A stretch of 26,654 bases of DNA from a virus, in the IMG/VR virus record IMGVR_UViG_3300006026_000083, positions 1-26,654 of that record. One strand, given 5' to 3'. The notes beneath the pieces were generated by a model. That model was not told the origin of the DNA, searched no databases, and saw only the letters and a program-made list of their open reading frames with translations. Position 1 is the first letter of the stretch. Each line of letters begins with the position of its first letter. Shown here in pieces: positions 1 to 23,800 of the stretch. The translations under genes and the position numbers were made by a program.

Positions 1-233
1 TCAATCCAAGATAATGTTCCATGATTGTAGTGCTTTGCACTAGTAATGGTAACTGTACCTTTAGGTGTAGATGGATATACGTTTTGAACTACTGCTCCAG
101 GATACTCATTTTGAAGTTGTTCACCAAGTTCTTTTCTTGATGGTAAATCTCCATTCTCTATAACCATTTCCATATTATAGAGTCTTCCTCTCCAAAGAAC
201 GTCGGCGGTAAAATGTTCACCGACGTTATCTAC
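1..233 (-). CDS. -1 frame extension of the 429-residue gene, partial at window edge
   Basis: Reading on from the heptamer at 233-239 in the -1 frame gives 77 complete codons with no stop before the window edge. The product begins VDNVGEHFTADV and then has LWRGR, DLPSRKEL and EYPGAVV in order. The same order occurs at residues 239-290 of the upstream zero-frame protein (GHLLSVIV, SWRGR, KLPTKKDI, VYPGGRV), so this is a second copy of one short domain. In this frame the nearest upstream stop is TAA at 288-290. Between it and the ATG at 171-173 there is no ATG, GTG, TTG, CTG, ATT or ATA codon, and that ATG lies after the WRGR motif. Independent initiation would therefore lose the start of the domain, and access by -1 frameshifting is the best reading. 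The domain has no function I can name. A frameshift mutation or a sequencing indel is the alternative. The true C-terminus lies outside the window. Confidence 0.7.
198..227 (-). other. 30-base hairpin just downstream of the slippery heptamer
   Basis: On the minus strand AACGTCGGTG pairs with CGCCGACGTT across the 10-base loop AACATTTTAC. That gives eight Watson-Crick pairs, then one U-G, then one G-C. The stem is GC-rich in an otherwise AT-rich window. It starts 5 bases after the slippery heptamer, inside the usual spacing for a frameshift-stimulating stem. It lies within coding sequence of the -1 frame and is followed by CTTTGG with no U tract, so it does not look like an intrinsic terminator. 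Folding energy was not computed. Confidence 0.8.
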
Positions 234-253
234 TTTTTTGGCAGATCTCCTCC
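198..253 (-). promoter_or_regulatory. Candidate programmed -1 ribosomal frameshift signal (dnaX-type)
   Basis: Three elements are seen in the order used by bacterial -1 frameshift sites. GGAGGAG at 247-253 resembles a Shine-Dalgarno sequence. It is followed after 7 bases by the heptamer A AAA AAG at 233-239, correctly phased in the zero frame (codons CCA AAA AAG). After a 5-base spacer (TAGAT, which contains the zero-frame UAG) comes the hairpin at 198-227. Known biology: A AAA AAG with an upstream Shine-Dalgarno-like stimulator and a downstream stem is the arrangement in E. coli dnaX. Inference: the Shine-Dalgarno-like element is stimulatory and not an initiation signal, because no start codon lies at a usable distance behind it. 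The gene starts in this window have much weaker Shine-Dalgarno matches than this internal site. The rival explanation is a seven-A run recorded as six. Confidence 0.72.
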
Positions 254-1519
254 AATAACAATTGTACCAACACTGCCTCCAGAGATATTAACATCTTCTT
301 TTACACAATTAGGAACTACTTTACCATTCTTTTTCTTGGTTCCCTTTGCCTTGTAACCATCCCAGCACTTGCTAGCACCAACGTTGGCGCGTGCTGTTGC
401 CATTTTACCCTCAACATTAAGAGTTTCTGGATAATTTTTATCACCTGGCTTTCTTTTGGGTTTTCCTGCTTTACGTCTCGCATGAATGTTGTCCCAAAGA
501 CCTTTCTTCTCCTCAATTTCTATATCATCACTCTTTGAACACTCACAAGGTGTCTTTTTACATTTGCCGCATTCTTCTTTAAGTTCTACTTCTTCTTTAG
601 TAGTAACTTTAAATAATGGGGAATCAAAATTTGCATGATTGCTAGGAAGATCTGAAGTAGAGAACTGAAGAACTCTTCCTCCAGGATAAACCTTCTCAAT
701 TTCTGCTTGAATATCTTTCTTTGTAGGTAACTTTGCTTGTGGGAAGAACATTCTTAGATATTGTGAACGTCCCCTCCAACTAACAATGACTGATAGCAAA
801 TGACCAAACTCTGAAGGTAGTCTAACTGCCTCTTCTAGTTCAACTTCCTCATTCTGACGCTCTGCTTCTAACTTAGCAGCAATCGCCATTTGGCGGATTT
901 TTTCATCAGACTTACCTTTAAATTGAGGTTTTTTAGACTTACGAAAATCTTTAATTACATCTCCCATGTCTGCTTTTGCAAGATCCATACCTTCTTTTGT
1001 TGTATATCCTGCTACAGCATCTGTATTATGCTCAGTATCAGTAAGTTTTGCTTGCATCCAGGCAGGAAGATTTTTTTCCTTTTTACCAATACTCTTCTTA
1101 ACTTTCTTTAAGTTTTCTTGGGATTTACTAATCTGTTTATGTGCCATGGACACTTCATGATCTTTTTCTTCTCTCTGTGAGAGTAAAGATTCTGGTGTAA
1201 TTAAGTCAATAAATTCTACAAATTTGTTACCAAAAGCATCTTCAATTGTAACTGATTCATCAACATTTGGAATTGGTTTGCAACAGTTTTCTTCAGAGCA
1301 CCAATAGTGCCCATCACTACACCTCTCCTCTCCAAGAATTTTATCTACTAATTTTATTTCTTCTTTCTTAATAGTTGGTAGTCCAACCTTCATAGAAGGA
1401 CGCAATTTTTTATCGGCAACTTTTCTTTCATTTTCATTTGGAGAATCCTTCATAGCAGCAATTCTATTCTGCTTTCTTGCTGAAGAATGTGCTTTAGTAT
1501 CTATATTAAAACTGGCCAT
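230..1519 (-). CDS. Mosaic hydrophilic protein of short conserved motifs, probable virion/late protein
   Basis: This 429-residue, Lys/Glu-rich protein has no membrane segment and no enzyme signature I recognise. It reads as short conserved pieces on flexible linkers. They are a Cys-rich patch (C67, C74, C79, C80), a helical stretch with DHEVSMA (120-126) leading to LPAWMQAKL (151-159), IRQMAIAAKLEAE (208-220), a WRGR/YPG domain (239-290), a second Cys patch CGKCKKTPCEC (317-327), KGLWDNIHARRK (339-350) followed by a KPGDKNYP element, and KCWDGYKAKG...VPNCV (384-406). From memory, similar pieces recur in structural and hypothetical proteins of T4-like cyanophages; I cannot search to confirm. 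The start ATG lies 21 bases after the gp16 stop, behind a late-promoter-like GATAAATA; a GGA 5 bases upstream is the only Shine-Dalgarno match. The stop UAG directly abuts a slippery heptamer, so a longer -1 product is likely. It sits where gp17 usually follows gp16. Specific function unknown. Confidence 0.85.
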   Translation of the reverse strand: MASFNIDTKAHSSARKQNRIAAMKDSPNENERKVADKKLRPSMKVGLPTIKKEEIKLVDKILGEERCSDGHYWCSEENCCKPIPNVDESVTIEDAFGNKFVEFIDLITPESLLSQREEKDHEVSMAHKQISKSQENLKKVKKSIGKKEKNLPAWMQAKLTDTEHNTDAVAGYTTKEGMDLAKADMGDVIKDFRKSKKPQFKGKSDEKIRQMAIAAKLEAERQNEEVELEEAVRLPSEFGHLLSVIVSWRGRSQYLRMFFPQAKLPTKKDIQAEIEKVYPGGRVLQFSTSDLPSNHANFDSPLFKVTTKEEVELKEECGKCKKTPCECSKSDDIEIEEKKGLWDNIHARRKAGKPKRKPGDKNYPETLNVEGKMATARANVGASKCWDGYKAKGTKKKNGKVVPNCVKEDVNISGGSVGTIVIGGDLPKK

Positions 1520-2976: not shown

Positions 2977-4368
2977 TTAAGGATTTCCGAAAGGATTTGA
3001 CTCACTAAAATCTAGTATGTTATCTGCTTCGATTTCAATAGTTTTGTTTTGTTTGAATTTATCTTCAATTTCAATATCATTATTTAGAATAGTATACTGT
3101 GCTCCACTTTCAGATCCAGTTAAAATCTCTCCATCAATAAATGTTCCCAATATGTTGCCCAAGGTTAAGACCTTGTTAATAGTATCCCAAGATTTTACTC
3201 TTGCAGTAGAACTGTTTGCAGATCCAACAACAACTTCATTGAATATAAATTTACCAGTTCCTATTACTACATCAGGAGGATCTATAACAACAGTAGGAAC
3301 TTCAGCATAGTTGTTTCCACTATCATGAATTACAATAGAGGTAACTATTCCAGATTCACTAATCAATGCTGATGCTACAGCAGGAATAAATCCAGTCAAT
3401 CCTGCCCCAACAAATGTAACATTAGGTGCTTCATAATAACCACTACCTCCACCAGTAATTGTTACTACACCTACAGCATTATTTGCAATTTTACATACTC
3501 CATATGCTCCACTTCCACCACCTCCAGTAAATGTTATACGAGGAGTCACTGTATATCCATATCCAGGGTTTATAATATCTACTGCTTGAACTCTTAAAGA
3601 CTCTTCAGATGTATCACATAGATCAACAATTCCAGAAATCATAGATGCAATTCCAACAGCAGTTAATCCATTATCTGGTGCAGAAGTAATTGCGACTCTT
3701 GGAGATTCAAAATATCCAGAACCTCTATTTGATATTGAAACAGTTCTTATTGCACCATCCACTAAACCAGTAAATGCTGTTGCAGTAGTTCCAACTCCAA
3801 CCATTTGAAGTTTTTGTAAAAATCCTTCTTCCTCTATATTATCATCAATTTCATCTACACCCGTAGCAATAATTTCATCATTATAAACATATAGCTCACA
3901 TTTTAATTCATAAACATAGTTTTTTTGTAATTGATAAAAAGGTTTTTCATGTTCTACATATTTTATTTCGAATAATTTATCACCCAATGGAAAATAAATT
4001 AAGTCCCCCTCTTTGGGTCTCTCTGTTAATTTTGTATTCTCTATGGGTTCAATAATGGGTCGTATTCCCAACTCATACCTTTCTTTTGATATTATTAGTG
4101 TTAAATCATCTACTTCTTGAACACCAAATTTTGATAGTAAAGTTCCTGCTCCACCAAAACCTTCATATGTATCTACATATGCTTCAATAGGAATAGCAAC
4201 AGTAAATTCTGATCTAGAGACTTCTTCTAATATAGTTTTTTCATTTACAAATATTCTTGGAATGTAATAAATTTCTATCCCAAACATCTTAATGTGCTCG
4301 TTTACAAGGTCTTGAACTAAACCTTGTTCTCCAGAAGATCCGTGTAGAAAAAATGGATTTAATGGCAT
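2977..4368 (-). CDS. 14: Neck protein gp14, with a glycine-rich repeat insertion
   Basis: The N-terminus (MPLNPFFLHGSSGEQGLVQD, then NEHIKMFGIEIYYIPR) is typical of T4-like gp14, as are FGGAGTLLSKFGVQEVDDL and KEGDLIYFPLG-type segments (here PKEGDLIYFPLGDKLFEIKY). The C-terminus ends on an acidic stretch and SNPFGNP. In T4 gp14 with gp13 completes the head neck so that tails can join. T4 gp14 has 256 residues; this one has 463. The difference is mainly an insertion at about residues 199-365 made of four glycine-rich units (NRGSGYFESPRV, NPGYGYTVTPRI, GGGSGYYEAPNV, DSGNNYAEVPTV). The insertion splits the ancestral domain, whose remainder continues at the C-terminus. The ATG is 4 bases after the gp13 stop, and AGG within the end of gp13 is the only Shine-Dalgarno candidate. 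Confidence 0.92.
   Translation of the reverse strand: MPLNPFFLHGSSGEQGLVQDLVNEHIKMFGIEIYYIPRIFVNEKTILEEVSRSEFTVAIPIEAYVDTYEGFGGAGTLLSKFGVQEVDDLTLIISKERYELGIRPIIEPIENTKLTERPKEGDLIYFPLGDKLFEIKYVEHEKPFYQLQKNYVYELKCELYVYNDEIIATGVDEIDDNIEEEGFLQKLQMVGVGTTATAFTGLVDGAIRTVSISNRGSGYFESPRVAITSAPDNGLTAVGIASMISGIVDLCDTSEESLRVQAVDIINPGYGYTVTPRITFTGGGGSGAYGVCKIANNAVGVVTITGGGSGYYEAPNVTFVGAGLTGFIPAVASALISESGIVTSIVIHDSGNNYAEVPTVVIDPPDVVIGTGKFIFNEVVVGSANSSTARVKSWDTINKVLTLGNILGTFIDGEILTGSESGAQYTILNNDIEIEDKFKQNKTIEIEADNILDFSESNPFGNP
3270..3775 (-). repeat. Four tandem glycine-rich GSGY modules inserted in gp14
   Basis: Translated on the minus strand, this segment contains four units with the pattern 'V-x-I-x-n-x-G-x-G/N-Y-x-x-x-P-x-V-x-I'. 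Each has a short hydrophobic strand, a G-G/Y turn and a strand ending in a Pro-Val/Ile step. Units are roughly 40 residues and are diverged at DNA level, so they are protein repeats and not recent duplications. The same pattern occurs in gp8 and in both giant proteins of this window. A beta-rich stacked or protruding fold is an inference. Confidence 0.75.
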
Positions 4369-5213: not shown

Positions 5214-5447
5214 TTAGTTATTCTTGCTTAAGTTTAATAACAAACTTTTAATATCATTTATATCATTCTTTAAACTATTTAAATCTGATTCTATTTTATT
5301 AATTCTAACAGAATCTCTTTCCTTCATTTTCCTTAATTTTATGTAGGTTTCATATCCAGATTTGTCTGTATTAATAATCCCGTTAGTGACAGTATCTCTA
5401 ACGAGATTATTATGACCTTCTACCTTTAGTCTTTGATTATATTCCAT
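5214..5447 (-). CDS. Small coiled-coil protein between baseplate giant and gp13
   Basis: This 77-residue protein starts MEYNQRLKVEGHNNLVRD and ends in an uninterrupted heptad pattern: I49, I52, L56, L59, I63, I66, L70 and L73 alternate by 3 and 4, with charged residues between. The second half should form a coiled coil. Its ATG overlaps the stop of the 2572-residue gene by one base (TAATG), and its own stop is followed one base later by the gp13 ATG, so it is embedded in the operon and probably translationally coupled. From memory, small proteins with a similar MEYNQRLKVE-type start sit near gp13 in other T4-like marine phages. Its function is unknown; a trimeric or dimeric virion linker is inference. 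Confidence 0.85.
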   Translation of the reverse strand: MEYNQRLKVEGHNNLVRDTVTNGIINTDKSGYETYIKLRKMKERDSVRINKIESDLNSLKNDINDIKSLLLNLSKNN

Positions 5448-8400
5448 TATGCCAAAGCAATTACTCTAAGATCCTTTATCCTTGGTGGATTTGACTGACT
5501 TGTAGATGAACCAATAATTTTGATACTAAAATATCTAAACTCTGGAAGATCATCTGCAGTAAATGTATAGTCATTAAATAATACATCATTAGTATTTGAT
5601 GATAAAACATCAGTCTTAACAACTTTCTTATCTGATAAACCATCAGAAGCAGAAATATCAATCACATTTCCATTCACATCCAAATTATTGTATCCTGGGA
5701 AGGGATAATAAACTGGATCATTTTCTGTAGTATTTGAGATCGAATAAAATACTCTAACATCATTAAATATATTTACATGTGCAGAAAGTAGAACTTTTAA
5801 AGAAGTTGCTGGATTTTCCAATTCAACTGGTAAGTTACAATAAATGAATTCATTAGGATCAGAGTTTAAAGTAGAAGTTCTTGGATCATTTACATAGTCA
5901 GTTATTGGGGCATTTACCCTATTTGATGTTAGAATAACACCTATTCTATCAAGATCAACTACTGGAGAAACTCTAATATCAGCAGAAGATAGACTTAGCT
6001 CTAATTCTAATGATTTATTTGAAATTAAATTTGTATTATGAATGGATTCATTGACCGTTGATGTTATTAATCTTGGTTCTGTAAAATAATTAGTTTCATC
6101 TAAGGTAATGTCTACTATTGGACTTTCTAAGAACGATACTTCATTACCATCTACACTAGTTCCTGTTATACTCTTAAGTTTTGCCGTTACATTAGTTTCT
6201 GGCAGAACTAAAGTTTGTACAATAGGTCTCATTGATTCATACTGTATATTTTGAGTTGCATTTACAAGCTCACCACCATCAGATTTTGACTTACGAATGT
6301 AAAGTTTCTGTACACTTGGATCAGAATCTCTATTGATACCATTTTGAGATGTATCTAGTTTTATGTAATAAAAATCAAAACCTATAGATCTTGGAACAAG
6401 TGCATCTTGTAGATAATGTAGTTTGTTTATTCTCCTTAAAGAAATACCATTATTTTCATATTTAAATACCGTAGTTTCTTCTGGATATGATATTGATTGT
6501 GTATTATCAATTTGCCTTGTAATTCCAGTTAAAGTTCCATTTGATATTCCAGTGTATGAAATAATCTCATCATTTATTAGAATGTACCCAGGATTTGTTG
6601 CACTAACTTCAATATTTTCAAATGTTGTGAAGTTTGTTGTGCTAGCAATACTAACAGGACCAGAGTCCGAGAAAGTATATTCTGCAGTCAGTGAAGTTGG
6701 TTCTATATCAGATCCTACTTCTGATAACTGGACAACATTTGTTTTAGAATGCATTGCATGGTTTTTATGATTTACTTTAATATGTAAACCATCTTCAAAT
6801 GGAGATGAAATCTCTATGTTTGAAATGACAGAATCTGCTCCACCAGTATCAAAAATAGTAGTGGTTATTCCTAAAGAATTATCATATAGTAATGATTTTG
6901 ATGTGTTATTCTCAAAATTACCCTGAACATTATCCACTACTAATTGATTAATTCCATTAATATTGGATATAGTAAATTGTGCATTTTTTCCTAAAGGTTG
7001 TGAACCAATACTATCAATAGTTACTACATCACCTTGCTGATATCCAAATCCACCCGAATTAATAGTTGCTGCAATTGCAACTCCATTTGTACTCCCATCA
7101 GCGCCTATAGTAATATCTGCTGTTGCATTTTTACCTAAACCACTTACCGATGTTAGAGATACTCCATTAAATGTAAAAGAAGAACCATCTGATGGAGTAT
7201 ATCCAATTCCAGCATTTGTTATGGTTAATTGTCCAGAAGCAGATCCACCATATCCAACAACATCACCCCTAACAAAACTATTGTTTTGTTGTTTAATAGT
7301 ATTTCCAATATCTAAAGATGTAATATCTATCACATTTGTAGTTGTTATAATTACTTTTCTGGATTCAAATTCTAAAGGATCTGGAACCAAAGTAGCTATT
7401 TGATCATTACCCAAATCCAACCTTGGGTTAAAGAATGATATAGTTCCTGGGGAATCATTATTAAATGTAGCAGCATATAGTCTAAACTTCAAATCTTCAT
7501 ATTGACTTGCAGTCCAGGTAGATCCATTTTGAGATTTAAATAGTGATCCCAAATCTGGTTGCTGCGAAACAAGAGTTTGTCTTGATTCTTCTTGAAGTAA
7601 TGTTGATACGTCAATCTCTCCCATTTTTGAAATCCAAACAGTATAATCATTTGAATCACTTAATAAAACTATCGCATATTCTTTATTACCTTCCAAATAT
7701 ATTGGGGATGGGAAGAATACTTCAGTTACTGTTAAAGAATCTTCGGAAGTAAATACCTGTTGTGGATTTATGACAACTTCAGAAAATGGACAAACTTCAT
7801 TTGTTGGATACCCATTAACCATAGGTCTTAATTGAACTGTAACTGGTATTATTGGATCTTTAGTTCTAAAGAATAGATCAACACTAGTTACAAATATACC
7901 ATTAGTTTCACTAACTAAAAATGATTGTGCTAAAGGATCCCTATTTCGAGTTGACCTAATTAGTTGTCTTGCGAATCTTCCTGCACTGGGTGGATTTCTT
8001 CTGGGTGGATTTCTTTGACCTCTACGTCCTTGGTTCGGTGCTGGAGCGGGACGCCCACGACCAGCACTTACTGGTTGAGGAAAAACTTGTGGTCGTGGTG
8101 GCGGTGCTGGCGGTGGTGGTGGCGGCGGTGGCGGTGGATCTGGTATAAATCTTGATCTAGTTTCTTGGCTTCTATCTACTGCAGTAGTTACTTGAACATC
8201 TGGTACTGCTGGTCTTCTCTCTGTAGTATCTACAACTTCAAATCTTGGTTTTCGTGTAGATCTTATAGTTTCTTGAACTGTATTCATAGTTCCAGAAGCA
8301 AAATATTGCTCTTCTCCAGAACTATCTACAAGTCCTCCAATTTTTGTATTAGTTGAACTATTTGTTAGTCTAAAGACCTTTGTTCCTGCCTCAAAACTTG

Positions 8401-11400
8401 GATTTGAAGGTACATTTGGGTTTGGAATAAAGAATGATCCTTTTATAGAACCAATACTATCAGTAAATAACCTTACATTTACTACTTCTGCCTCTCCATT
8501 AGGACCTCTTAGCCTCATACCTGGAACAATAAATCCACGATACAGTGATTGATTGTTTTCTGATAGTGATCTAGTGTCAACGTTCAATAATATTGAAGAA
8601 CTTGAATATTCTGCTGGTACTATATAATTTTGATCATATGGACTCTCAACGTAAACATCACTAGGATTTGATATTGGTCCGTATTTGTGGTTTGACTTTG
8701 CTACTCTAAATTGAATTCTTGGTAAAGATCTACCAAAGAATAATCTTCTTCCTCTAAAAAATCTTCCTCTTCTTCCAATTCTTGTTCCTCTGACAAGATC
8801 ACCAACATTAAAAATTCCCCTAATCATTCTTATTTCGATTAGTTTTGGAACTATAAATTGATTTACATCCTGCTCATCAAAAAATCCATATAATCTTGTA
8901 AAAGGTTTGAATCTTCTTGCAGTAAATTCTATATTTCTAGATCTCATGAAAGGAATAACAGAGGTGTTGACAACTCTGTCTCCCTCACTCCTAGTTTCAA
9001 CTTGTTCAGATACTCTTAGTCTTTTACCATCTCTTTGATCAAAACCAGTTTGTGTTGTAGTGGTTACAGTTGTTGTTGTTACATCTCTAACATCAGTTCT
9101 AACAGTACCCCTTCCTCTTCTTATATTACTTTGATTTCTCCAATTACTTCTAGTAGTTGATGATGTACTCGTAGAAGTGGATCCAGTCCAAGTAGTTTCC
9201 CAAGAACCCCAAACAATTGGACCGAGACCAGTTTGTGCATCATAACCAGCATATTCTAGTTGTAATCTTGTTTGGGTATAATCATCTGATGTTATTGTTT
9301 GTGGTCTTAATCTAGTTTGATCAATCCAGATATCAGATGATGGGAATAACTCAATTGTACCCGCATAAGTAGTAACTAAATACGGAGTCACATTTTCAAC
9401 TCTTGTTGCAAATGGATTTTCAACTATTACTTCATCAGTATAATCTAATGTTAGTAATTGTCCAGTTTTTCTTATATTTGATCCAATAAGATCATCCACA
9501 AATTCAGAATCTGCAACTGTACCTGAAGTAGTTCCAATGCCAAGTAAAGATCTTCCACCCAAAAGCAAATCAATTTGTGTAGTAAAGTGAGAAGGTCTTA
9601 GTTCTAGATTTACTGGATCTATACTGTTAGTAACCCTAGAACTCTTAATTTGCGTTTTTCTAGTACTAAAATTATCAACATATATTCCAGATTTAAACCT
9701 TGTTAGTCCATTTGAATCTGGAATTGTTAGTGATTCTGCTTTTGACTCTAAAAGTGACAATGCAGTATAGTATTCTAAATTATTAACTCTCTGTTCTAGT
9801 TGACCAACATCCTCCATTCTATAGCGTTTATATTTGTTTAATTTTATTTCACAATCATCAATATCACACAAATATGGTGGTATTGATATAGTAGCTACTT
9901 CAAGAGCATCTTCTATAGGTATTGGTGGCAAAGGATCTTCTGAAGGAACTCCATTTAACAACTGAAATTCTCCAGTTTTTAATAGGAACAATTTATCAAT
10001 TCTTGCCAAGTAGTGAGAATATGTTAATCTTATAGATTCATCTGATGCAAGAATATTTTTTGCAGAATTATTTGAGTCTGAAAATTGTCTTGAAGTAAAT
10101 TCAAATGGTGATAGTTGTGAATTTGAATTGAATGGTAATACCCTTGGTCTAATATCAATAATGTCTGAGGTTCTGACATCATTTTTTACACTTAATAAGT
10201 CACAATAATCAAACTGAGAATAAGAATTGGCGGTTGTAATATCACCATTTTCAGAAGAAGAAAACTCTCCAGATTCGAAAATAACTTTTATCTGATTTTT
10301 TGGACTTTTGGAATTTTCCTTCCTAATGATTCTAGAATAATCACAAATAGTATCTCTTTGCCCAGAATCTAAAGTGTATCTATCTGTTATATTTGTGGAT
10401 CCTTGTCCAATGTCTGAAATTGTTCCTAAAATATTGCTTTTTTCTGATCTTACTGTCTCACCAATAATAAATGCAAGATCGCTTAAATAAACTATAGATA
10501 TTTTTGAAGAATTTATATTTTCTACATAAATTGCTTCAGCTTCAGAAGTTTCTCCTTTAATCACTTCAGAAATAACTAAATCATCAGTTCTACCAGTTTG
10601 ACCATTTAAATTTGCTAATGTTAAAGAAGGTAATACAGGTTCAAATGTATCTGAAGATTCAAAAATAGCATATACTTTAGTTACATCAGGTTCTAACAAG
10701 CAAATTTCTTTATCCTGAACTCTTAGACCATAACCATAACTTCCATATTCTAGTCCATCATCTAAAGTCGTACTTCCAATACCAGAAGAAACTGATGTAG
10801 ATTTATTTACAATAATAGAGTTTGCTCTATTAGCAGTTTTTGTTCTACTAGTGACTCTATTTTTTGATAATGTTGCTATAAGTCTTCCAGGTCCATTGGT
10901 AGACATTCCATATATGGTGATTGATTTTGATCCATCACCATATATAAATTTATCGCCTGTCAATACTTCAAAATCACCATTAGAATTTATTAATACATAC
11001 CTTTCTTCATCGAATGGTAAAAATGCTTCATCGGATTCACATTGAATTGTATTAGTAACATTCTGATTTATTACTAAATTAAATTCTTTTCTAATTGTAA
11101 TTTCTGATTCTGTTAAATCAACATTAGAAATATATTTTTTTGGTAATGGTGTATATAAAGTATTATCTGTAGATGATTGCAATTTTGTTCCAATCAAACT
11201 AAAGTCCAATGCAATAACATCAGAAGAAGAAGGCATTAAACCATAATTTATTCCTGTTACTTCAGTAACACTTGTAATTCCAATAGTATATTCATCTGTT
11301 ATACTTACTACTTTACCATAAGTTTTATATTCTGGAGACACTAATCCAGTATTTGTAAATGATACATAGTCTCCAACTTTAAATATTTTATCTAGTTGAA

Positions 11401-13165
11401 CATCTGTTGAAACAACAGTAGATACATTAGCAACTGCTTGCCCAACAGTAACTTGACCTACACTAGTGTAATTAGAAAGTTTTGTGTCTGCATTAAAAGT
11501 CTCACCAATACCAATTGTACTATGTAATGATTTTACATCTAAAGTTTTATATTCTGTTACACTAGTAATTAATGAATTTCCATCTACACCATTGAGAATT
11601 AATTTCTCACCTTTTATAAATTTTCCTCTTGTACCATAAACAGTTGCAATTCCTGCACTATTTGTGTCAAATCTTAAATGCCCACTTGCTCCACTAGACT
11701 TACCTTCAATATAAACTGGAGTTGTCCATGAAACAGAAGAATTTAAATTTAATTCTGTATAGTATTGTGTATCATATAAAGATATGTCCCAAGTATTTAA
11801 TTCTTGAACAGCAGTATCATAAGATCCACCTTCTAAAGCATAATCATATATTCTTGATATACCAATTTCTTTGCCACTAGGAATAAATTGGTTTTCTCCA
11901 ATTCTACTATCTCTTAAACTAATTAAAGATGATGTAGTAAATCCAATTCTTGGAGCACCAACGACTCTATTAAGAGACATTGATGGACCAGTAAAATAGT
12001 TTATTGCTTGGTTTTCTAATGTACTAGTTGTTCTTGGTTTTTGGAAATCTAGATATGTTGAAGTTAAATATTCTATCTCATAACCCTTAACATATGCTTT
12101 TCCTGGAGAAATTTTATATGTCCCCAAAGATTCTCTAGGTACATTACCATTTCTAGTTAATTGATTTGATTTAAATACTCCATCATTACCTTTTCTATCA
12201 TCTAGAGTTTCTTTTGCAGACACTGAAAATGATTTTACATAAAAATCACCAGATTGCTCATAAGTTCTTCTAGCAAGCTCATCTCCAATATCATTATAAA
12301 CTGATCTGTTATATGCTTTCTCAACGCCTCCTGATCTTACAATAAAGAGTTCTACAAAGTTTTCATGTTTATCTACTTCTATTGGTCTTTTTGCTAAAAC
12401 AGCTCTTATTTGTAGTCTATCTGCACCAGGAGCTGCATAATTATTGAATCCAGAAGCATTATCGTTTAAACTATTATCTTGTCCAGATGTTACAATATTT
12501 TCATAAATTTCAAATCCAATTCTATATGATGGATTATTCTCATGAGGTTCTAATATTAAAGTCTGTGCTAAAACCTTTACAAAAGTTCCTCTTAGATAGT
12601 AAACTCCTTCCTGCATAAAAACTGCAGAACCAATAGAAGTTGATTGTGTAGGTGCAGTGGTTGTAAATGCTTGCCCTTGCTGAAAAACTGCAGCAGTTGA
12701 ATTTAGATTTTCTTCTAAAATCAATAGTTCATTATCATCAAATACCGCCTTATCATCATTTCCAGTTGAAAGATAATTTATGTATAATGTAATATACCCT
12801 CTATCAGAATATTCAGTTCCTATACTATCAACTATTTTTGCCTTAAGATTTGAATTTTGTCCCCTAATTGTAATCCCAGCCAAATCTCCCCTGAATGAGT
12901 CTAAATTTATTCCTAGATATTGACTCTCTACTTCTACACAATTTAATTCATTATTATAAGAATAATTTCCAGGAATAACTACTGACCCCTCTTTAAACAA
13001 ATGTGTTCCAATTTGTTCAACTTGGTTTTGTAAAATAGACTGTAAAGTTGTAAGTTCTCTAGATTGTACTGGAAAACCTGGCTTAAAAAGAACTTTATGA
13101 TATCCTTTTAGGGGATCATAATCATCAAAATAGGGAGATATATTTAAATTTGTTTCTTGTGGCAT
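5447..13165 (-). CDS. Giant tail/baseplate structural protein, DUF4815-type N-terminus
   Basis: This 2572-residue protein starts MPQETNLNISPYFDDYDPLK, then KGYHKVLFKPGFPVQSREL and QNQVEQIGTHLFKEGSVVIP, a signature of DUF4815-type phage tail proteins, including PGKAYVKGYEIEYL (about 352-365). A Ser/Thr/Arg-rich stretch (about 1325-1385) leads to VIPFMRSRNIEFTARRFKPF and LYGFFDEQDVNQF (about 1400-1437), then an Arg-rich patch (about 1456-1475). A poly-proline and RG/PR-rich linker (1677-1735) separates this half from DPLAQSFLV...FVTSVDLFFRTKD (about 1740-1768). Next come glycine-rich units (about 1970-2090) and one IDDE-type module (about 2175-2240). The end is PEFRYFSIKI...PRIKDLRVIALA. Its position between gp8 and gp13 is where T4 encodes gp9-gp12 and the whisker fibritin, so it probably links baseplate and adsorption apparatus; the exact role is inference. 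The ATG lies 14 bases after the gp8 stop without a clear Shine-Dalgarno sequence. Confidence 0.88.
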   Translation of the reverse strand: MPQETNLNISPYFDDYDPLKGYHKVLFKPGFPVQSRELTTLQSILQNQVEQIGTHLFKEGSVVIPGNYSYNNELNCVEVESQYLGINLDSFRGDLAGITIRGQNSNLKAKIVDSIGTEYSDRGYITLYINYLSTGNDDKAVFDDNELLILEENLNSTAAVFQQGQAFTTTAPTQSTSIGSAVFMQEGVYYLRGTFVKVLAQTLILEPHENNPSYRIGFEIYENIVTSGQDNSLNDNASGFNNYAAPGADRLQIRAVLAKRPIEVDKHENFVELFIVRSGGVEKAYNRSVYNDIGDELARRTYEQSGDFYVKSFSVSAKETLDDRKGNDGVFKSNQLTRNGNVPRESLGTYKISPGKAYVKGYEIEYLTSTYLDFQKPRTTSTLENQAINYFTGPSMSLNRVVGAPRIGFTTSSLISLRDSRIGENQFIPSGKEIGISRIYDYALEGGSYDTAVQELNTWDISLYDTQYYTELNLNSSVSWTTPVYIEGKSSGASGHLRFDTNSAGIATVYGTRGKFIKGEKLILNGVDGNSLITSVTEYKTLDVKSLHSTIGIGETFNADTKLSNYTSVGQVTVGQAVANVSTVVSTDVQLDKIFKVGDYVSFTNTGLVSPEYKTYGKVVSITDEYTIGITSVTEVTGINYGLMPSSSDVIALDFSLIGTKLQSSTDNTLYTPLPKKYISNVDLTESEITIRKEFNLVINQNVTNTIQCESDEAFLPFDEERYVLINSNGDFEVLTGDKFIYGDGSKSITIYGMSTNGPGRLIATLSKNRVTSRTKTANRANSIIVNKSTSVSSGIGSTTLDDGLEYGSYGYGLRVQDKEICLLEPDVTKVYAIFESSDTFEPVLPSLTLANLNGQTGRTDDLVISEVIKGETSEAEAIYVENINSSKISIVYLSDLAFIIGETVRSEKSNILGTISDIGQGSTNITDRYTLDSGQRDTICDYSRIIRKENSKSPKNQIKVIFESGEFSSSENGDITTANSYSQFDYCDLLSVKNDVRTSDIIDIRPRVLPFNSNSQLSPFEFTSRQFSDSNNSAKNILASDESIRLTYSHYLARIDKLFLLKTGEFQLLNGVPSEDPLPPIPIEDALEVATISIPPYLCDIDDCEIKLNKYKRYRMEDVGQLEQRVNNLEYYTALSLLESKAESLTIPDSNGLTRFKSGIYVDNFSTRKTQIKSSRVTNSIDPVNLELRPSHFTTQIDLLLGGRSLLGIGTTSGTVADSEFVDDLIGSNIRKTGQLLTLDYTDEVIVENPFATRVENVTPYLVTTYAGTIELFPSSDIWIDQTRLRPQTITSDDYTQTRLQLEYAGYDAQTGLGPIVWGSWETTWTGSTSTSTSSTTRSNWRNQSNIRRGRGTVRTDVRDVTTTTVTTTTQTGFDQRDGKRLRVSEQVETRSEGDRVVNTSVIPFMRSRNIEFTARRFKPFTRLYGFFDEQDVNQFIVPKLIEIRMIRGIFNVGDLVRGTRIGRRGRFFRGRRLFFGRSLPRIQFRVAKSNHKYGPISNPSDVYVESPYDQNYIVPAEYSSSSILLNVDTRSLSENNQSLYRGFIVPGMRLRGPNGEAEVVNVRLFTDSIGSIKGSFFIPNPNVPSNPSFEAGTKVFRLTNSSTNTKIGGLVDSSGEEQYFASGTMNTVQETIRSTRKPRFEVVDTTERRPAVPDVQVTTAVDRSQETRSRFIPDPPPPPPPPPPAPPPRPQVFPQPVSAGRGRPAPAPNQGRRGQRNPPRRNPPSAGRFARQLIRSTRNRDPLAQSFLVSETNGIFVTSVDLFFRTKDPIIPVTVQLRPMVNGYPTNEVCPFSEVVINPQQVFTSEDSLTVTEVFFPSPIYLEGNKEYAIVLLSDSNDYTVWISKMGEIDVSTLLQEESRQTLVSQQPDLGSLFKSQNGSTWTASQYEDLKFRLYAATFNNDSPGTISFFNPRLDLGNDQIATLVPDPLEFESRKVIITTTNVIDITSLDIGNTIKQQNNSFVRGDVVGYGGSASGQLTITNAGIGYTPSDGSSFTFNGVSLTSVSGLGKNATADITIGADGSTNGVAIAATINSGGFGYQQGDVVTIDSIGSQPLGKNAQFTISNINGINQLVVDNVQGNFENNTSKSLLYDNSLGITTTIFDTGGADSVISNIEISSPFEDGLHIKVNHKNHAMHSKTNVVQLSEVGSDIEPTSLTAEYTFSDSGPVSIASTTNFTTFENIEVSATNPGYILINDEIISYTGISNGTLTGITRQIDNTQSISYPEETTVFKYENNGISLRRINKLHYLQDALVPRSIGFDFYYIKLDTSQNGINRDSDPSVQKLYIRKSKSDGGELVNATQNIQYESMRPIVQTLVLPETNVTAKLKSITGTSVDGNEVSFLESPIVDITLDETNYFTEPRLITSTVNESIHNTNLISNKSLELELSLSSADIRVSPVVDLDRIGVILTSNRVNAPITDYVNDPRTSTLNSDPNEFIYCNLPVELENPATSLKVLLSAHVNIFNDVRVFYSISNTTENDPVYYPFPGYNNLDVNGNVIDISASDGLSDKKVVKTDVLSSNTNDVLFNDYTFTADDLPEFRYFSIKIIGSSTSQSNPPRIKDLRVIALA
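8096..8137 (-). repeat. Poly-proline tract P10-A-P3 in the 2572-residue protein
   Basis: Codons for ten consecutive prolines (residues 1677-1686), one alanine and three prolines, written with mixed CCA/CCG codons, follow Asp1676. The next ~45 residues are rich in Arg, Pro, Gln and Gly. The tract is a sharp local GC rise in an AT-rich gene. Mixed codons argue for selection on the protein and against simple triplet slippage. Such a run normally needs EF-P to be translated; as a rigid linker it would separate the N-terminal and C-terminal halves. Confidence 0.9.
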
Positions 13166-14792: not shown

Positions 14793-14800
14793 TATTTATC
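14793..14800 (-). promoter_or_regulatory. Late-promoter-like motif GATAAATA upstream of gp8
   Basis: The minus strand reads TGATAAATAAATAAAC across the stop of the 3899-residue gene. GATAAATA and an overlapping AATAAATA each match 7 of 8 positions of the T4 late consensus TATAAATA. The motif ends 29 bases before the gp8 ATG, leaving room for a short leader. This is the longest intergenic gap in the window, which favours a promoter, but base composition makes chance matches common. Confidence 0.45.
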
Positions 14801-17800
14801 AGACAAAATACCCATCATATTTTAGTGGGAGTTTTCTACGCAAAATTGGGTTTGTTCCTATACCAGATTGATTTTCAGAGAATGCAGTAAATGGTTTTGC
14901 TCTAAGTCTTCTTGTTAAATCAACTTTACCCCAGACATAATTGCCAAACAATTCTACACTATTAAAACCAGTATTACTTGGATTCTGCCCAGGAGCTAAA
15001 TTTGACAGTATAACAATAACATTTTTAACTGTAGTTGTTATACCAACAGGTAATCCAGATATTCCAGATGGTATTGTAACTATTTTTTCTGACCAATCAT
15101 AGCATTGAACTACCATATCAGTAAAAATAGTTGATATTCCAACTGGATCTGGTAAAGGTCCAGTTTGTGCAGTAAATCCAGAAGGTAAAGAAACTCTACC
15201 TCCACTTGGATCTCCAAATACAGTATGTGTAATATTAAAATAATCTCCTGTAGTTATACCAACATCATACACTCCATTCTTTCTTAAATCCGAATCCATA
15301 GGAATAAATAAATCTAGTCCAAGGAAATATTGATTTGTTGATTCTGAAATTCTAGACGTGTCAAAACCAACTATTACTCCATAATCACCATAATAATTAA
15401 CAAAAATTGATTCCTCAGTATTTCTCCATGGTGGTGCAATTAAAATTGGAGGTGGTTCAATTTCATTTACAATAAACTTTATAGAGTTTTCTAAAGGCCA
15501 TCTTCTATAAGAACTTGCAAGACCAACGTTATCATAAACTTTAAGTTCTAATATATCACCAACAGAATAATTGACTCCCTTATCATTAATTGATGTTAAT
15601 GATGTAATGGAAGTTTCTGAATTGACCGATATATCTACGGTTGCATTTCTTCCAACACCAGTTACCGTATGTAATTTTGCACTCGTCATTATGGTTTCGC
15701 CACCAAATAAAGGTGGAAATCCAGATCCTTGAGAATAAATTGATAGTGTCTTTATTGGTCCATTGTAATAATTTGTTCCCCCATAACTAACATTCACACT
15801 ATTTACAGAAGATCCCGACATTAATGCAAAAGCAGTTGCTTGAGATCCATCTATAAATGGTTTTTGTATAGTTATTTCTGGTGCCGCTGTGTACCCAAAT
15901 CCAGGATTTGTAACATTTATACTATCAATTGTACCATTTGTATTTAAAACTACCTCTGCTTCTGCAGAAATGAGTTGATCTGTAGGTATAATCTCAATTC
16001 TTCTTTGTTCTGTTGGTTCTATACCTTCTCTTGAAATATTGAACAGTGATGTATCAAAAACATAAACATGTTCTGATGTTATTGCAATACTATTGAGTAT
16101 ATTTGTAGTTGGATTTATTATTGGTTCATAATAAACTCTATCTTTACCAATAAAACTATTATCGATTATTATATCTTGTTCTTGCTTAATCCAACTAATA
16201 GGTCTCTCATATAATTCATCTAAAACAACACCAACATTTGCATAATTATTAGTAATAATTGTATCAGCTGACTTCACATCTACAACAAGTCTTTCTTCTT
16301 GAGTAAGGTTGGAATCTACATCACTAAAAATCTGTACATTATCTCCTACTTTTACTGAAGGTAAAACTCTTACAAGTCGAACATCAATTTCTGATGTTCC
16401 AGTATATGCTAAAATCTTTACAGTATCACCAACAGTACTAAATCCAACTAATTGACCTTTAGGTGCTTCTGTAAATCTGATTCTACTTCCACCATTAAAC
16501 TGATAACCTTCTCCTGGAGTTTGTAGTACATCATTTACAAATACCAATAGATTTGACTGTAAACTAATTCCAGAACTAGTTTTTGCATAGAATGATATAT
16601 CTTCACCATCTATCTGTAATGGGAATAATCTTCTTACTCCATTAAAATATTTGGAAATATCATCCAATATTATAAATTCACCAACGTTCCAACCAGAGAA
16701 CTTTGATCTGAATACTTCTGTAACGTTTAATTCAAAATGTTCAAAATTTGATATGCCAGTTAATGTTGGTATGCCAACAGTTCCCCCAATAGAGACTGTA
16801 AGTAAATCATTTTCATTATATCCATATCCATAATTTTTAATCTCAAAAGAACGTATTGTTCCATCATTACTTGGAACCAAATCTACCGTTGCTTCTGTAC
16901 CAATTCCACTAGAACCTTGTGAATATATTAATGGCAAATTTGTATAACTTAAAGGTGCATCAAAAATAACTTCTGGTGGATTTGATTGATCATATCCTGA
17001 TAGAGAATTAGTTATGTTTACAGAAGTTACATATCCACCATTTACTACAGCTTCTCCAAAGTACACAATTGTATCAGAATCTGTTCTTACACCAACTTTT
17101 ACTGTTTGTAAACCAGATCTATATCCAGATCCAGTGTTACCAATAGCAACAGAGGTAAGAACGCCTAACGGATTAATTATTGCTGTTCCACCAGCACTTA
17201 CTAGTGGTTGATATCCAAATCCTTCTGTAGATCCTACGCTAACTATTATACCACCTTTTGGTAAACGATTTACATTTACATCCTTAGTTATTGTTGGGTC
17301 TGTTGGATTCAAGTTAAATCCTACTTTTAAATTTCCACCATCAACAAAAAGTTTGTAGTCTCCATAAATGCTGTATTTTGGAGTGCTTATTCTTTGAGGT
17401 CCTTGGAATATACCATCAATTAAAAGAATTGTATTTGTGTAAGGGATATTTGTAATATTATTTCCCTCATAACTTAAATTGAATGTTGTTGATATACCAT
17501 TAAATTGTGTAGTAATATCATCATAAACATAGTTATTATCATATGCTTTGTCGAAATCGTTAGTGTATAAAAAGTTAAGTGCGGATCTTAAAAACACTCT
17601 CCCACTAAATTTTGAAGATGTGGTCAATCCAGTATAGTCAATTTCATTTGCAGATGTTGCAGTAGTTCCAAATCCTACAGGTATTTTGCCCCATATTCCC
17701 TCTGAGAAGTTTAAATTATTACCAACAATATTAAAATTACCAGAAAGTTTTGATATTATTTGATTGGAATTGTGAGTATCCTCTTTTGTTCCAACTACCG

Positions 17801-20800
17801 ATCTATCAACATTAATTTGATTGAGTGATTTATTTACAGATTTTACCAACACAATCTCATTATCAATTTCTAGTAAATCTCCAGACTTAATAAAGTCGAT
17901 AGTATTTACTGATATATTTGTATCACCAATTCCAATAGAACTTGAAGTTGCTATAGTATATCCAGATCCAACAAGTGGTGATTGAATAGCTCCATTTATT
18001 GTTATAAGTAGTCTATTATTTGCATCAATAGATCTAATTCTATGAGTAACTCCAGCACCAACTCCTACAATATCTACTCTATTTGGGTTAAATTGTAAAG
18101 AATCACCTACTGTTGCTGCTATACTTATTTTCTGATTATCTTCCTTAATAATATAGAATCTGGAAGGTAATCTTGATGTTATTCCTATTCCTGGCCAATT
18201 AATTGGAGATATTTGTATTCCATTGTTTGGATTTTCATCGTGTGGTATGTATTCAACCTCCTCACCACTAACGAAGTAGTGATTTCCTAAGTTTATATTG
18301 TTTTGATCTACAAGCACTACATTAGAGTCTGTTCCATCAAATTCAACCTCAAATATTGGATTATTCTTTTCAAAAATCCCAAATGATTTAGTGTTAGAAT
18401 CAAACTGATCACTAATATCATCTATAGTTAAAACTCTGTTACCTATAAATTCTCTATACTCTGCCAAAAACGGTAAATTAAAAAGTATCTCATTAGATAC
18501 AAGAGATTCATCTACTTTAATACTCTTTTCTCTGGCAATATCAAAATCTTTAACTGCATTAAGATTCACTGATTCTGTGAGATCTGATATTGCAACAACA
18601 ACGTTATCATCTTGTTCTGTTGGCATTCTATAAAGATCATTATCAGATGGTTCCAAAATCAGATCACTGAATTTTTTAAATCCAACAGTATGTGTTAAAT
18701 TACTAACCAGAGGATTCCAAACAGTAAAATCTAATGGAGATTTTACCGAATATGAAAAATATTGATAATAATCATTGTCAGACAATCTTTGGAAAAATGT
18801 ATTTAACTTACCAGTTTCTTTTTTCCATCCCTCTCTAACTATACTGCTTGAAGATACTTTGTAATCTCCTTCAGATCCAAAGGCTGATGATATTAGTGCC
18901 AGATTTTTTGAAGATTGACCATAAATTATATCTCCAGGTGAGAATTTTTTATTGGTTCTAATTTTTATATACTCATTGTTCTGGTCATATCTTTCCACAA
19001 CTCCAACATTGTCTTCATATATGACTAATTCATTTTCATTAAATGAACCCTTTTCTAGGGTAATATCAAAGATTGGAAAATATGATTCTGGTGTTGCTGT
19101 ACCAAAAGATTCAAATTCATCATAAACTCCTGGAGATTCACCAACTTTAAGTACATCTGATATATTATATACAATAGAAGGAAACTCGCCACCGATGTTT
19201 GGATCTGATTGCTTAACTTTAAATAGAGAATATCCATATGATGAAGAGTTATAACCCTTTCCGCCAATATTTAAATCAATATTAGTATTTTCAATGATTA
19301 CATTATCACCAACATTAAATGGAAAGTCTGAAGCATTTGCAAAAGTAACCGCAAATGCGACTGTAACATCATTAGTAATGCTATCAAACGTAATATTACT
19401 AATTCTAATTCCATTTGGATTATTTACTGGTAGTATTTTTGGTGTAACATTGTATAGCCCAGTAGTATTTCTAATAATATTTACTTCAGTATCTCCAATA
19501 TCATATCTAAGTCTTGCTTCAGTATTAACTCTTCCAGTGAATCCATCAATAACAACTAATTGTGGAGGTACAAAGTAATTTGTACCGAAAGATGATATTT
19601 TTATCTTTTTGAATTTTGATAACGGTTCTATTTTATATGTACTTGGGAAAATTGCAGATGGTCTTAATGTTTTATCTGAAGGATAGTCTAATCCAAGATT
19701 TAATAATTTTATATTATCTATCTTACCAATTGACTTTGAAAATGGTAAGAAAATAGCTCCAGAACCCTGTGAAGATACTACTTTAGTAACATAGGGTAAA
19801 GTTCTATAGTTTCTTCCTTGTGATACTAAAGAGACTTCTGCTATTGGACCAGTACCATAAATGGATTTGTATGTAATTATTCCATCATTTTCACTATATG
19901 AAGATTGTTCTGGATCAGAGTCTAGTGGTATTATAAAAGATGTGGTGGTTATTCCAGATATATTTGATTTACCAGAATATACACTATCAAGAATTTGTAT
20001 TGAACTAGAGTTTTTTATATTACTAAAATCTACCTTTAAATTTAACTTTGTTACTGGAGTATTTGGTAGATTGATAGGAGTTAACTTATAGTAAAGTGTT
20101 TTTGGAGTATCAGAGTCTATTTTTATTTGAACATAAGCTCCATCAGAACCAATGTCCCCAACATAAGTTACATTGAAGGTATCTGTTTTATCTGAAGAAG
20201 AATAATACTTATTTGTGAAGTTAACATCAGTATAAAATTCAAATTTAAAAGATGGGTCTTCATTATATTGCAATGATCTATCAGATAGATCAAATATTAT
20301 ATTTTCATTTTTATAAAATTTCAATTCTGGATTTATAAGAGATATTGATCCATCTTGTTGAGATCCAATATTTACTAATATTGAAGAATCTAACTCAGAT
20401 ATATCGGAATAATACTTTGTAGATAGTGCAATCGTATTAGAATTTATACTTATAATATAATAAATTCCAGAATTTATTAGTCCGATTGATGGACTTTCTG
20501 AATTATAAATTACCTTATCTCCAGTTTTAAATTGGTGGTTATTAATGGTTATTGTATTTAAATCAATATCTACATCAGAAGAACTAAATTCAGTTTTATT
20601 AACTAAGGTTCTATAAACTAAATTATCATAAGATACTTTTATTGTTCTAGTTTTATTGCTGGACAAAGACAAATCTATTTCATTTCCAGCAACTAATCCA
20701 TGAGGTGATTTTGTTATTATATTAGCATATTTTTTTACAATGCTAGATTGAATGACATCATCCCTATTTGTTTTTAGTTTTTGATTATTTCCTACTCCAT

Positions 20801-23800
20801 AATCATTATATTTAATCAATTCAAAAATAGATTCAGATCCAATACCAACATACTGGTTTGTAGATCCTATAGAAACTTTTTGTGTTGATAAACCAATATA
20901 ATGATTAGAATAAGGTACAACGTATAAAGAATCAACATCAGTAAGATCTTTTGTTGTTGCTGCATAAGATACATTTATTGGAGTATCTGTATCATTTATT
21001 ATATAAGATACTTTATCATTCAATATAAATTTATGATTTGGTAAAAATATTGTATTTGGTATAGTATCTTTTGTTTTTACAGGATCCAGTTCTGGAACAT
21101 TTACATACAATAGTCCACTCTTACCCTCCGAACGTTGAAGGGTGGAAGCATAATTTTCGTAGTAAAGACTTAAATTTTCTCTCTCAACTTGAGCTCCCCA
21201 AATATAAAATGTTGGAGTTGAATTTAGGGTAAATCCTGCTGGACCGTAAGTACCAACTCTAAAATTGTGTGTCCCCGAAGAAGTAAGTTGCTTAAATGTA
21301 TATCTTCTATACGTATTTGTTAAAGTTACTAATTGACCATAATATAAAATTCCATCATCAACTATTAAATAGACAGATTCTCCTCCTTCTTCACCCTTCA
21401 AAAATACCGAGAATACATTTTCTTCATTCGACAAGCTTACTCCATTATATCCATATAAAAAATAATCAGAGTTTCCTGTAGTATTTGCGATACTAATTTT
21501 AGCTGCTTCTTTTTTATTTTCTATAGGAGATTCTTGTAAATAATCAATAGATCCAGTGATATTGGCATCATCTTCCCAAGGAGTTCCTGGTAACTGTGAT
21601 GATGAAATTGGATAAGAATATTCTAATAAATTCTCAGAATCTATTATAATAGATTCTTTAGGATTAAAATAATATTCAGAATTTGTATTGTATGATTTAT
21701 CTGTAGATAATCCAGTATTAACTATTACTTTTCTTGGTAATTCCTCAATAATATCACCAGAAGAATGTGTAGTAGAAATTGATCCAGCATAAGATCTTTC
21801 TATTTTTACAGTATAATTTTTACTGTAAATATTCAAAATTTTAAACAATTCTTCATTTGATTTATATATATCACCAATAGATATTACAGATGTTAAGTCT
21901 CCATTGACTTTTAAATATGTGACTATGCCAGTTTGTGAAGAATTTTCTAAATCATTTAAAATAGTTAATCTATTACTCTTCTTAATTTCTAATGATTTGA
22001 CAGGACCAATAAATTTTGTTGATATTATATTACAATTATCAATAATTGGTATATCCTGGTTTGTTATATCTATAAAGTGACTAGAAATTCCTAAGTAATT
22101 ACCATCAGTGTCTAATCTAGAATATTCAAAATCTGGATAAGTATCTTCACTAAATGTAATAGTACCTATTTCCCTACCACTAACCGATTTTACAATGGCA
22201 AAGGCATTACTTCCAAAAGTTCCTTCATTATTAAAATAAATTTCATCGCCTGCCGCATAATTTTCACCACCTGAGATAATATCTAGTTTATCTACAGAAC
22301 CAGAACTAGTATTAGTTATTTTTGGAAGTACATTTTTAAATGTTTCTGGACTTACCAACCCATCATAGAATGTATTATCTTTAGAAAATCCAAAATATGA
22401 TGTAAATCTAAACCAATTATCACTATCTACAGATTTTCTAGATAAATTTGAAAAATCTTCAAAATTATATGGTATTGGTTTTGAATTAAAAGAATTTCCA
22501 ATTACATAAGGAAATATTGGTTTTAAAAATCCATTATATGGACCACTAGACTCTTTAGTGGTATTAAAAGTTGAAAAATATGCATATACTCCGTTTGGAA
22601 ACTCTGGAGTTTTACAAAATCTTCCGTTATTAATATCCAAATCTCCAGCATTAGTAAATACATAATCCTCAATAAAATATCCAGTTGGAAAAATGCTTAC
22701 TGGTGGTCTATTCTCCACTATTGGTCTTAATTCATATCCACTACTCAACTGTTTAATGGCACCACCTTCAATATTTTCATATCCATATGGACCATATATT
22801 GGATTTCCATCATATGCCCATCCAACTATGGGAGAGTGATATTTGATTGTATCCGAATCGTTAAGTAAATCTTGTTTAAATATTGGATTTCCTTCATTAT
22901 CTAAGGATGATGCCAAACACTGCTCTCTAATTCCTCTTGGAGTAAATCCATGACCATAAGATAATTCTTTGGTAATATCTTTTGATTCATATATTATTCC
23001 ATCATCATCATTTATTGATGATGTACTGAAAAGTTTTTCGACCAAATTTAAAGTCCAAGATTGGATATTGACATCAAAAGATACTCCAAATCCATTAGAA
23101 ATTACTTCTATGAAAGTATCTTTCGTATATCCAAAACCTCCATTCAGAATAGTAACTGATTGTATTCTTCCATTAATTATAACAGGAGTTAAAATTGCAT
23201 TAAATCCATCACCATAAATCTTGATCTCTGGGGCAGAGTTATAATTTGAGCCACCATCAATAACTGTTACTTCAATAATTCTTCCATCACTGGAAATAGT
23301 TGGTAATAATTTTGCATTTTCTCCATTGTATACATTAATAGTTGGTTTTCTATTATAATTGACAATAGAATTATCACCATATCCACTACCAGGATTTTTT
23401 ACTGAAGTTGAAAAAATTTCTCCAGTAAAGATAGGATTTAATTTTCCAGTAAATGTTTGACTACTAACAGTGTTTATTCCTATAGGAGCTTCAACTTTTA
23501 CTATTATTGGTGTATATGATACTCTGTGTTGACCACTTCCAAAATCTGAAAATGGAATACTTAATTTATTGTTGTAATTAAAGTCTTTATCAAAATCTGT
23601 TTGAAGTACTTCATATACTTTAAATTCATCATCATTTACTCTTCTTACAAAGTATTCTGATGTTGATGATAATCCTGTAGGAAGAACACCATCACTATTA
23701 AAAATTACTACTTCCTTATCTAAAAATCCGTGATTTTTTATTTTAATTGTATCAAAATTCTTATTAATATTGTTTGAATTAAAATATAAAATTTTATTTG

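Follow-up and report, generated by a model that had tools for sequence, protein, structure and literature searches.

A predicted −1 frameshift site behind a terminase small subunit gene, and similar sites in T4-like phages

Introduction

How can a phage gene be continued behind its own stop codon by a reading frame that lacks a start? This question is raised by the virus record IMGVR_UViG_3300006026_000083, a stretch of 26,654 bases that was analysed as a whole (the window) and whose base 1 is the end of the contig. On its minus strand, genes for a head-tail adaptor, a head closure protein, a tail sheath stabiliser and the terminase small subunit precede the open reading frame (ORF) P0001, and the −1 frame remains open behind the P0001 stop (Table 1). 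Two of the ORFs are very large, with 2572 and 3899 aa (window 5447-13165 and 14799-26498), and adjoin the neck genes. A Pfam search with P0001 found no family above its cut-off, and in relatives only some of the neighbouring genes carry the annotation “virion protein” or “structural protein”. Judged solely by its phage relatives, the window phage would infect a cyanobacterium. A sequence-only reading had proposed that frameshifting at the end of P0001 appends a second copy of a domain already present in the protein, and that the resulting one- and two-domain forms, made in a set ratio, could plausibly control valency or stoichiometry in a particle.

Table 1. Features at the 3′ end of P0001 (window coordinates)
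Feature	Position	Strand	Remarks
P0001, zero-frame ORF	230..1519	-	429 aa, terminus ...GDLPKK followed by the stop
Domain copy 1 (“internal” family)	671..805	-	P0001 residues 239-283
Shine-Dalgarno-like GGAGGAG	247..253	-	7 nt 5′ of heptamer
Putative slippery heptamer A_AAA_AAG	233..239	-	codon phase right for −1 shift; same site in L002
Zero-frame stop TAG	230..232	-	directly 3′ of heptamer
−1 frame	3..233	-	77 codons in window, open at contig edge
Hairpin, 10 bp + 10-nt loop	198..227	-	5 nt 3′ of heptamer
Domain copy 2	87..221	-	−1 residues 5-49; related to PHROG 1742 (108-aa family)

The Junction Resembles the dnaX Frameshift Cassette

The last codons of P0001, CCA AAA AAG TAG, contain a heptamer of the X_XXY_YYZ type in the correct phase before the zero-frame stop, and a hairpin lies downstream at a short distance. 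By its sequence, the junction is a dnaX-like −1 frameshift cassette that is kept in eight contigs. The −1 cassette of Escherichia coli dnaX likewise consists of A_AAA_AAG, an internal Shine-Dalgarno (SD)-like sequence upstream and a hairpin downstream (PMC5009743; for the SD element, PMC5600365), and shifts with an efficiency of 50% (PMC5009743). The shift in E. coli dnaX leads to the shorter product, whereas that in the window would lead to the longer one; some dnaX genes are reversed in this respect, with a stop directly after the shift site (PMC5009743). Of the −1 motifs tested in E. coli with stimulators, A_AAA_AAG, G_GGA_AAG and C_CCA_AAG are the three that shift most efficiently (PMC4066793). 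A 113-nt stretch of the window folds with a z of −2.84, and the identical hairpin sequence in contig L002 reaches −14.7 kcal/mol within 36 nt (p 0.007), while the pairing of the same SD-like sequence with the anti-SD amounts to −9.3 kcal/mol in L002 (p 0.029 in comparison with other in-frame positions within the ORF).

The eight contigs, the window and L002-L008, form one clade, and the seven others come from seven different metagenome numbers. L003 and L004 are each identical to the window at 5519 of 5519 bases and L002 at 4871 of 4874 in the overlap; in L005 and L008 the 330 nt upstream fall to 82% identity per 100-nt block. Heptamer, stop and hairpin are kept in all eight, and from the heptamer to the end of the hairpin L008 differs from the window at two positions, both in the loop. 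A true frameshift mutation in a decaying gene, or an indel from assembly or sequencing, would leave a comparable trace: loss of one base from the seven-A run of CCA AAA AAA GTA yields exactly the heptamer and the stop, and a lone indel does occur elsewhere in the clade (L007:1200-1400, where one A is missing relative to L006 and the ORF breaks without a heptamer). It is nevertheless very improbable, given that the A6 run is identical in eight contigs that differ elsewhere, and that an SD-like sequence and a hairpin flank the site.

No start codon lies near the junction. The codon after the slip is GTA, and the first ATG, 20 codons into the −1 segment of the window, falls within the copy-2 domain, so that a start there would remove the conserved first part of the domain. 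These observations bear on the possibility that the −1 ORF is a separate gene, reached by re-initiation at that internal ATG or at a non-standard codon, which we consider very improbable. Its precedent is found in the many relatives in which the copy-2 domain, and in some cases a DUF6321 ORF, is a gene of its own whose ATG coincides with the stop of the gene before it. Re-initiation would not need an in-phase heptamer, however, and such heptamers are frequent at start-less −1 junctions (see below).

The −1 Frame Is Coding and Ends in DUF6321

The end of the −1 frame is reached in L002, L003, L006, L007 and L008. In L002 (4642-5136) it comprises 164 codons followed by TAA, as it does in L008, so that no early stop follows beyond the window edge; in both contigs a new ATG comes directly after the −1 stop. 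The −1 frames of L002 and L008 differ in 27 codons synonymously and in eight non-synonymously, with 5, 7 and 30 differences at the first, second and third codon position, respectively. Since the differences are mostly synonymous and in third positions, the frame is coding, as the sequence-only reading had held, and is under purifying selection; the persistence of this selection is a further argument against decay or an indel. The downstream frame is a coding frame that lacks its own start.

In L002 the appended segment starts with the copy-2 domain and ends with DUF6321 (Pfam PF19846), which matches residues 87-161 of the −1 segment with 45.5 bits against a cut-off of 28.5. No Pfam family was found in the 77-aa part that lies in the window. 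A tryptic peptide predicted from the −1 frame of the window phage is VDNVGEHFTADVLWR. AlphaFold models the appended segment with low confidence (pLDDT 63.6, pTM 0.42) and suggests a strand-strand-helix-strand order followed by helices. A Foldseek search of the segment against the PDB gave nothing at E ≤ 0.001 and sequence searches of the PDB gave nothing, and therefore no function is derived from structure.

The Two Domains Are Homologous but of Different Origin

Copy 1 and copy 2 align without gaps with 14 of 45 residues identical (BLASTP E 1e-7), which upholds the claimed homology and, with a match that begins at −1 residue 5, its resumption right after the junction. The local BLOSUM62 score of domain against domain, 74, was reached by none of 5000 shuffles (maximum 45), and that of the whole protein against the −1 segment by none of 3000 (maximum 52). 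Copy 2 also matches the PHROG 1742 profile (E 1e-17, profile 33-97 of 108) and falls into the corresponding clade; the match begins at profile position 33, however, and neither the N-terminal third of the family nor a start is present.

In a tree of 58 domain rows, which is built on only 64 columns and has 20 of 55 inner branches starred, copy 1 belongs to a starred set of 29 rows (99/95) formed by domains inside the long protein, and copy 2 groups with all 24 standalone small genes (100/100). A tandem duplication of the domain is rejected by this separation, so that the appended part does hold a homologue of a domain already present, but not a duplicate of copy 1. The Synechococcus phages DSL-LC02 and S-RIM2 show the order terminase small subunit, long protein ending in DUF6321 and a domain gene of 106-108 aa. 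The ATG of the small gene overlaps the upstream stop in DSL-LC02, and one further small gene lies between the long protein and the domain gene in S-RIM2. In L511 (S-SRM01), the long protein and the small domain gene are separated by a gene annotated as recombination endonuclease VII (3810-4220). Tree and gene order together indicate that the −1 part of the window joins what is a neighbouring gene in relatives to the DUF6321 that terminates their long protein. A separate gene with its own start for copy 2 thus exists in relatives, but not in the clade of the window.

Similar Sites Occur at Other Boundaries

Among the loci fetched up to L385, DUF6321 was found in 341, of which 252 are distinct. 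Its ORF is in frame with at least 100 aa upstream in 192 of these; 57 have a short upstream part and three lie at contig ends. In eight of the 57 (L002, L006, L008, L071, L112, L128, L164 and L326) the junction lacks an ATG, the ORF lies in the −1 frame relative to a long ORF before it, and a heptamer, either A_AAA_AAG or G_GGA_AAG, is in phase. Five other short ones have no such long ORF before them, and in nearly all of the remainder an ATG lies near the junction. Further sites came from a wider scan (L023, L047, L052, L135, L136, L138, L139 and L242) and a later one (L652); among the matches listed in a loose pattern scan, few loci hold DUF6321. Its two relevant contigs, L481 and L486, are apparently L128 and L112 again, judged by their gene layout.

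Eight of the sites are located between the terminase genes (L023, L071, L164, L112, L128, L136, L326 and L138), and L135 and L139 precede the large subunit gene. For the clade of the window, the small subunit gene lies before the site in L002 and L006 and the large subunit gene after it in L008. By our own grouping, this first slot comprises about seven boundaries: the window clade, L023, L071/L164, L112/L128, L326, L136 and L135/L138/L139/L652, the gene context of the last group having been read for its first three members. The putative −1 sites of T4-like phages in this slot thus fall at about seven boundaries between modules of the gene that separates the two terminase subunit genes. A second locus adjoins the cytidyltransferase gene and has two −1 boundaries, L047/L052 and L242 together with cultured Synechococcus phages. 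At L047:4441 and L052:4411, A_AAA_AAG and a 9-bp hairpin precede a 50-codon −1 extension that is not DUF6321. The −1 site at L652:2707, on a contig of 235,761 bases, would add more than 600 codons to a 586-codon ORF. At L136:2728 and L326:2989 the G_GGA_AAG cassette is nearly the same, with CGCCTGGGAAAGTAGAAGAA in both, but the modules behind it differ, as though one had been exchanged while the frameshift site was kept.

A scan of 19 isolate or single-cell records gave two matches, the Synechococcus phages Sf-CH11 and Sf-FR1 (host WH8102); in a separate search, Sf-CH1a matched in the same way as Sf-CH11. The junction near the cytidyltransferase gene reads GAA AAA AAG TGA in Sf-CH11 and GAA AAA AAG TAA in Sf-FR1, and in both the −1 frame continues; at the same boundary S-RSM4 and S-H9-1 have an ATGA overlap. 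No frameshift site in the terminase slot was seen in any isolate among these 19 records. The annotated second gene of Sf-CH11 and Sf-FR1 starts at an internal ATG, which means that annotation pipelines mis-start the second part at such junctions. The codon after the slip is GTG in Sf-CH11, a possible start for re-initiation, but the close parallel Sf-FR1 has GTA.

In a survey of 1026 ORF pairs (at least 60 codons; loci L391-L510 left out), an in-phase heptamer was present at 12 of 20 −1 junctions without a start codon, compared with 14 of 713 with one (Fisher p 2.3e-14); it is this enrichment that re-initiation leaves without a role. At +1 junctions the heptamer occurred in none of two without and 13 of 291 with a start, and in-phase A_AAA_AAG makes up 0.05% of codons in long ORFs. 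At 12 tested sites, SD-like pairing (Fisher p 3e-7) and downstream folding (5e-7) are stronger than at positions elsewhere in these genes, but the sites were chosen by us, those in related contigs are not independent, and because such contigs are included the Fisher p-values overstate the evidence. Several of the 12 have weak SD pairing, and L023 and L136 no strong hairpin (p 0.52 and 0.98).

Five of the 14 junctions with both heptamer and start (L071, L136, L139, L242 and L386) were counted as sites because the start looks internal (an ambiguous GTG in L386). Among the eight start-less −1 junctions without a heptamer, that of L007 is the lone indel, L062, L067, L352 and L511 were judged from the sequence to have starts further downstream, and three have fewer than three homologues, as does one further junction with a heptamer. 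L047, L052 and L522 lie below the 60-codon limit and were found by other scans. Indels or decay should also produce +1 breaks, and the sole start-less +1 case with a homologous continuation, L386:3386, looks like a further-downstream start. Furthermore, two other site types are G_GGA_AAG, which contains no homopolymer. The same sites count against transcriptional slippage on the A6 run, which would deliver mRNAs in both frames from a run that does consist of A. A reviewed bacterial case uses nine A or T (PMC5009743), and the SD-like sequence and the hairpin would be left unexplained, so that this mechanism appears extremely improbable.

Proposed Mechanism and Purpose

Programmed −1 ribosomal frameshifting very likely explains the window junction, and the protein probably comes in two lengths, the longer one arising when some ribosomes slip back by one base before the stop. 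Most ribosomes would read P0001 to the TAG and release the 429-aa protein of ~48 kDa. A fraction would pause on A_AAA_AAG, aided by the upstream SD-like sequence, by the hairpin and by the stop codon that follows immediately, whereupon both lysine tRNAs could re-pair one base back and reading would go on for 164 codons. The long product of 593 aa (~67 kDa) would contain two WRGR-type domains and end in DUF6321. We infer both the occurrence of slippage at this junction and its rate from sequence features.

Recoding into one- and two-domain forms is consistent with these results, but the appended part also holds DUF6321. Judged across the sites, the most often appended part is DUF6321 and not the repeated domain. 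Domain valency is probably not the main point, since every other site found in the slot adds DUF6321, either by itself or as the final part. Most likely, the purpose would be to equip just some copies of the protein, whose gene lies among head, neck and packaging genes, with DUF6321; a role of DUF6321 in marking protein for the particle is conjecture.

In T7, 10B is the minor form of the capsid protein. Like the lambda G/GT tail assembly chaperones, T7 10A/10B are produced by −1 frameshifting near the ORF end (PMC5009743), and the window gene would share with them a −1 shift near the end of a structural gene that gives a minor extended product. The window gene differs in its position between the terminase genes, and no homology of lambda G/GT or T7 10A/10B to the window protein appeared in any search made here. 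Closer in kind are the Ig-like domains at the C-termini of phage coat and tail proteins. In T3, A2, A118, A500 and PSA these extensions are reached by a −1 (or +1) shift; other phages encode them in frame, and the difference is attributed to recombination that places some domains out of frame (PMC5009743). The likeness is a mobile C-terminal domain that is frameshifted in some phages and in frame in others; here, however, the modules are DUF6321 and the WRGR-type domain, several boundaries of one gene slot are involved and all sites found are −1. No report of a frameshift-made C-terminal domain was found in the literature searched for the gene of the window or for cyanophages, and the available sections of the PRFect paper name no cyanophage (PMC10885494). 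Frameshift-made C-terminal domains of phages are known as such, and what is new is the recurrence of predicted sites at several boundaries.

The same −1 trick appears to have evolved several times in the same genome region of relatives; in most relatives the parts are fused in frame or sit in a gene that starts at an ATG of its own. The interval from gp16 to gp17, annotated as small and large terminase subunits, is a hot spot of cyanophage gene variation (PMC3037559), which fits an exchange of modules. For the T4-like phages of marine and lake cyanobacteria with a modular gene between the terminase subunits, we regard it as possible rather than probable that the cassette acts as a movable hinge, which arose at or moved to about seven boundaries and tunes the fraction of protein with DUF6321 without separate genes. 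In nature the same gene occurs in three arrangements, namely fused in frame, split into two genes whose stop and start overlap, or joined by a predicted frameshift, and therefore the question why frameshifting is used instead of a simple fusion can be tested by comparing close relatives.
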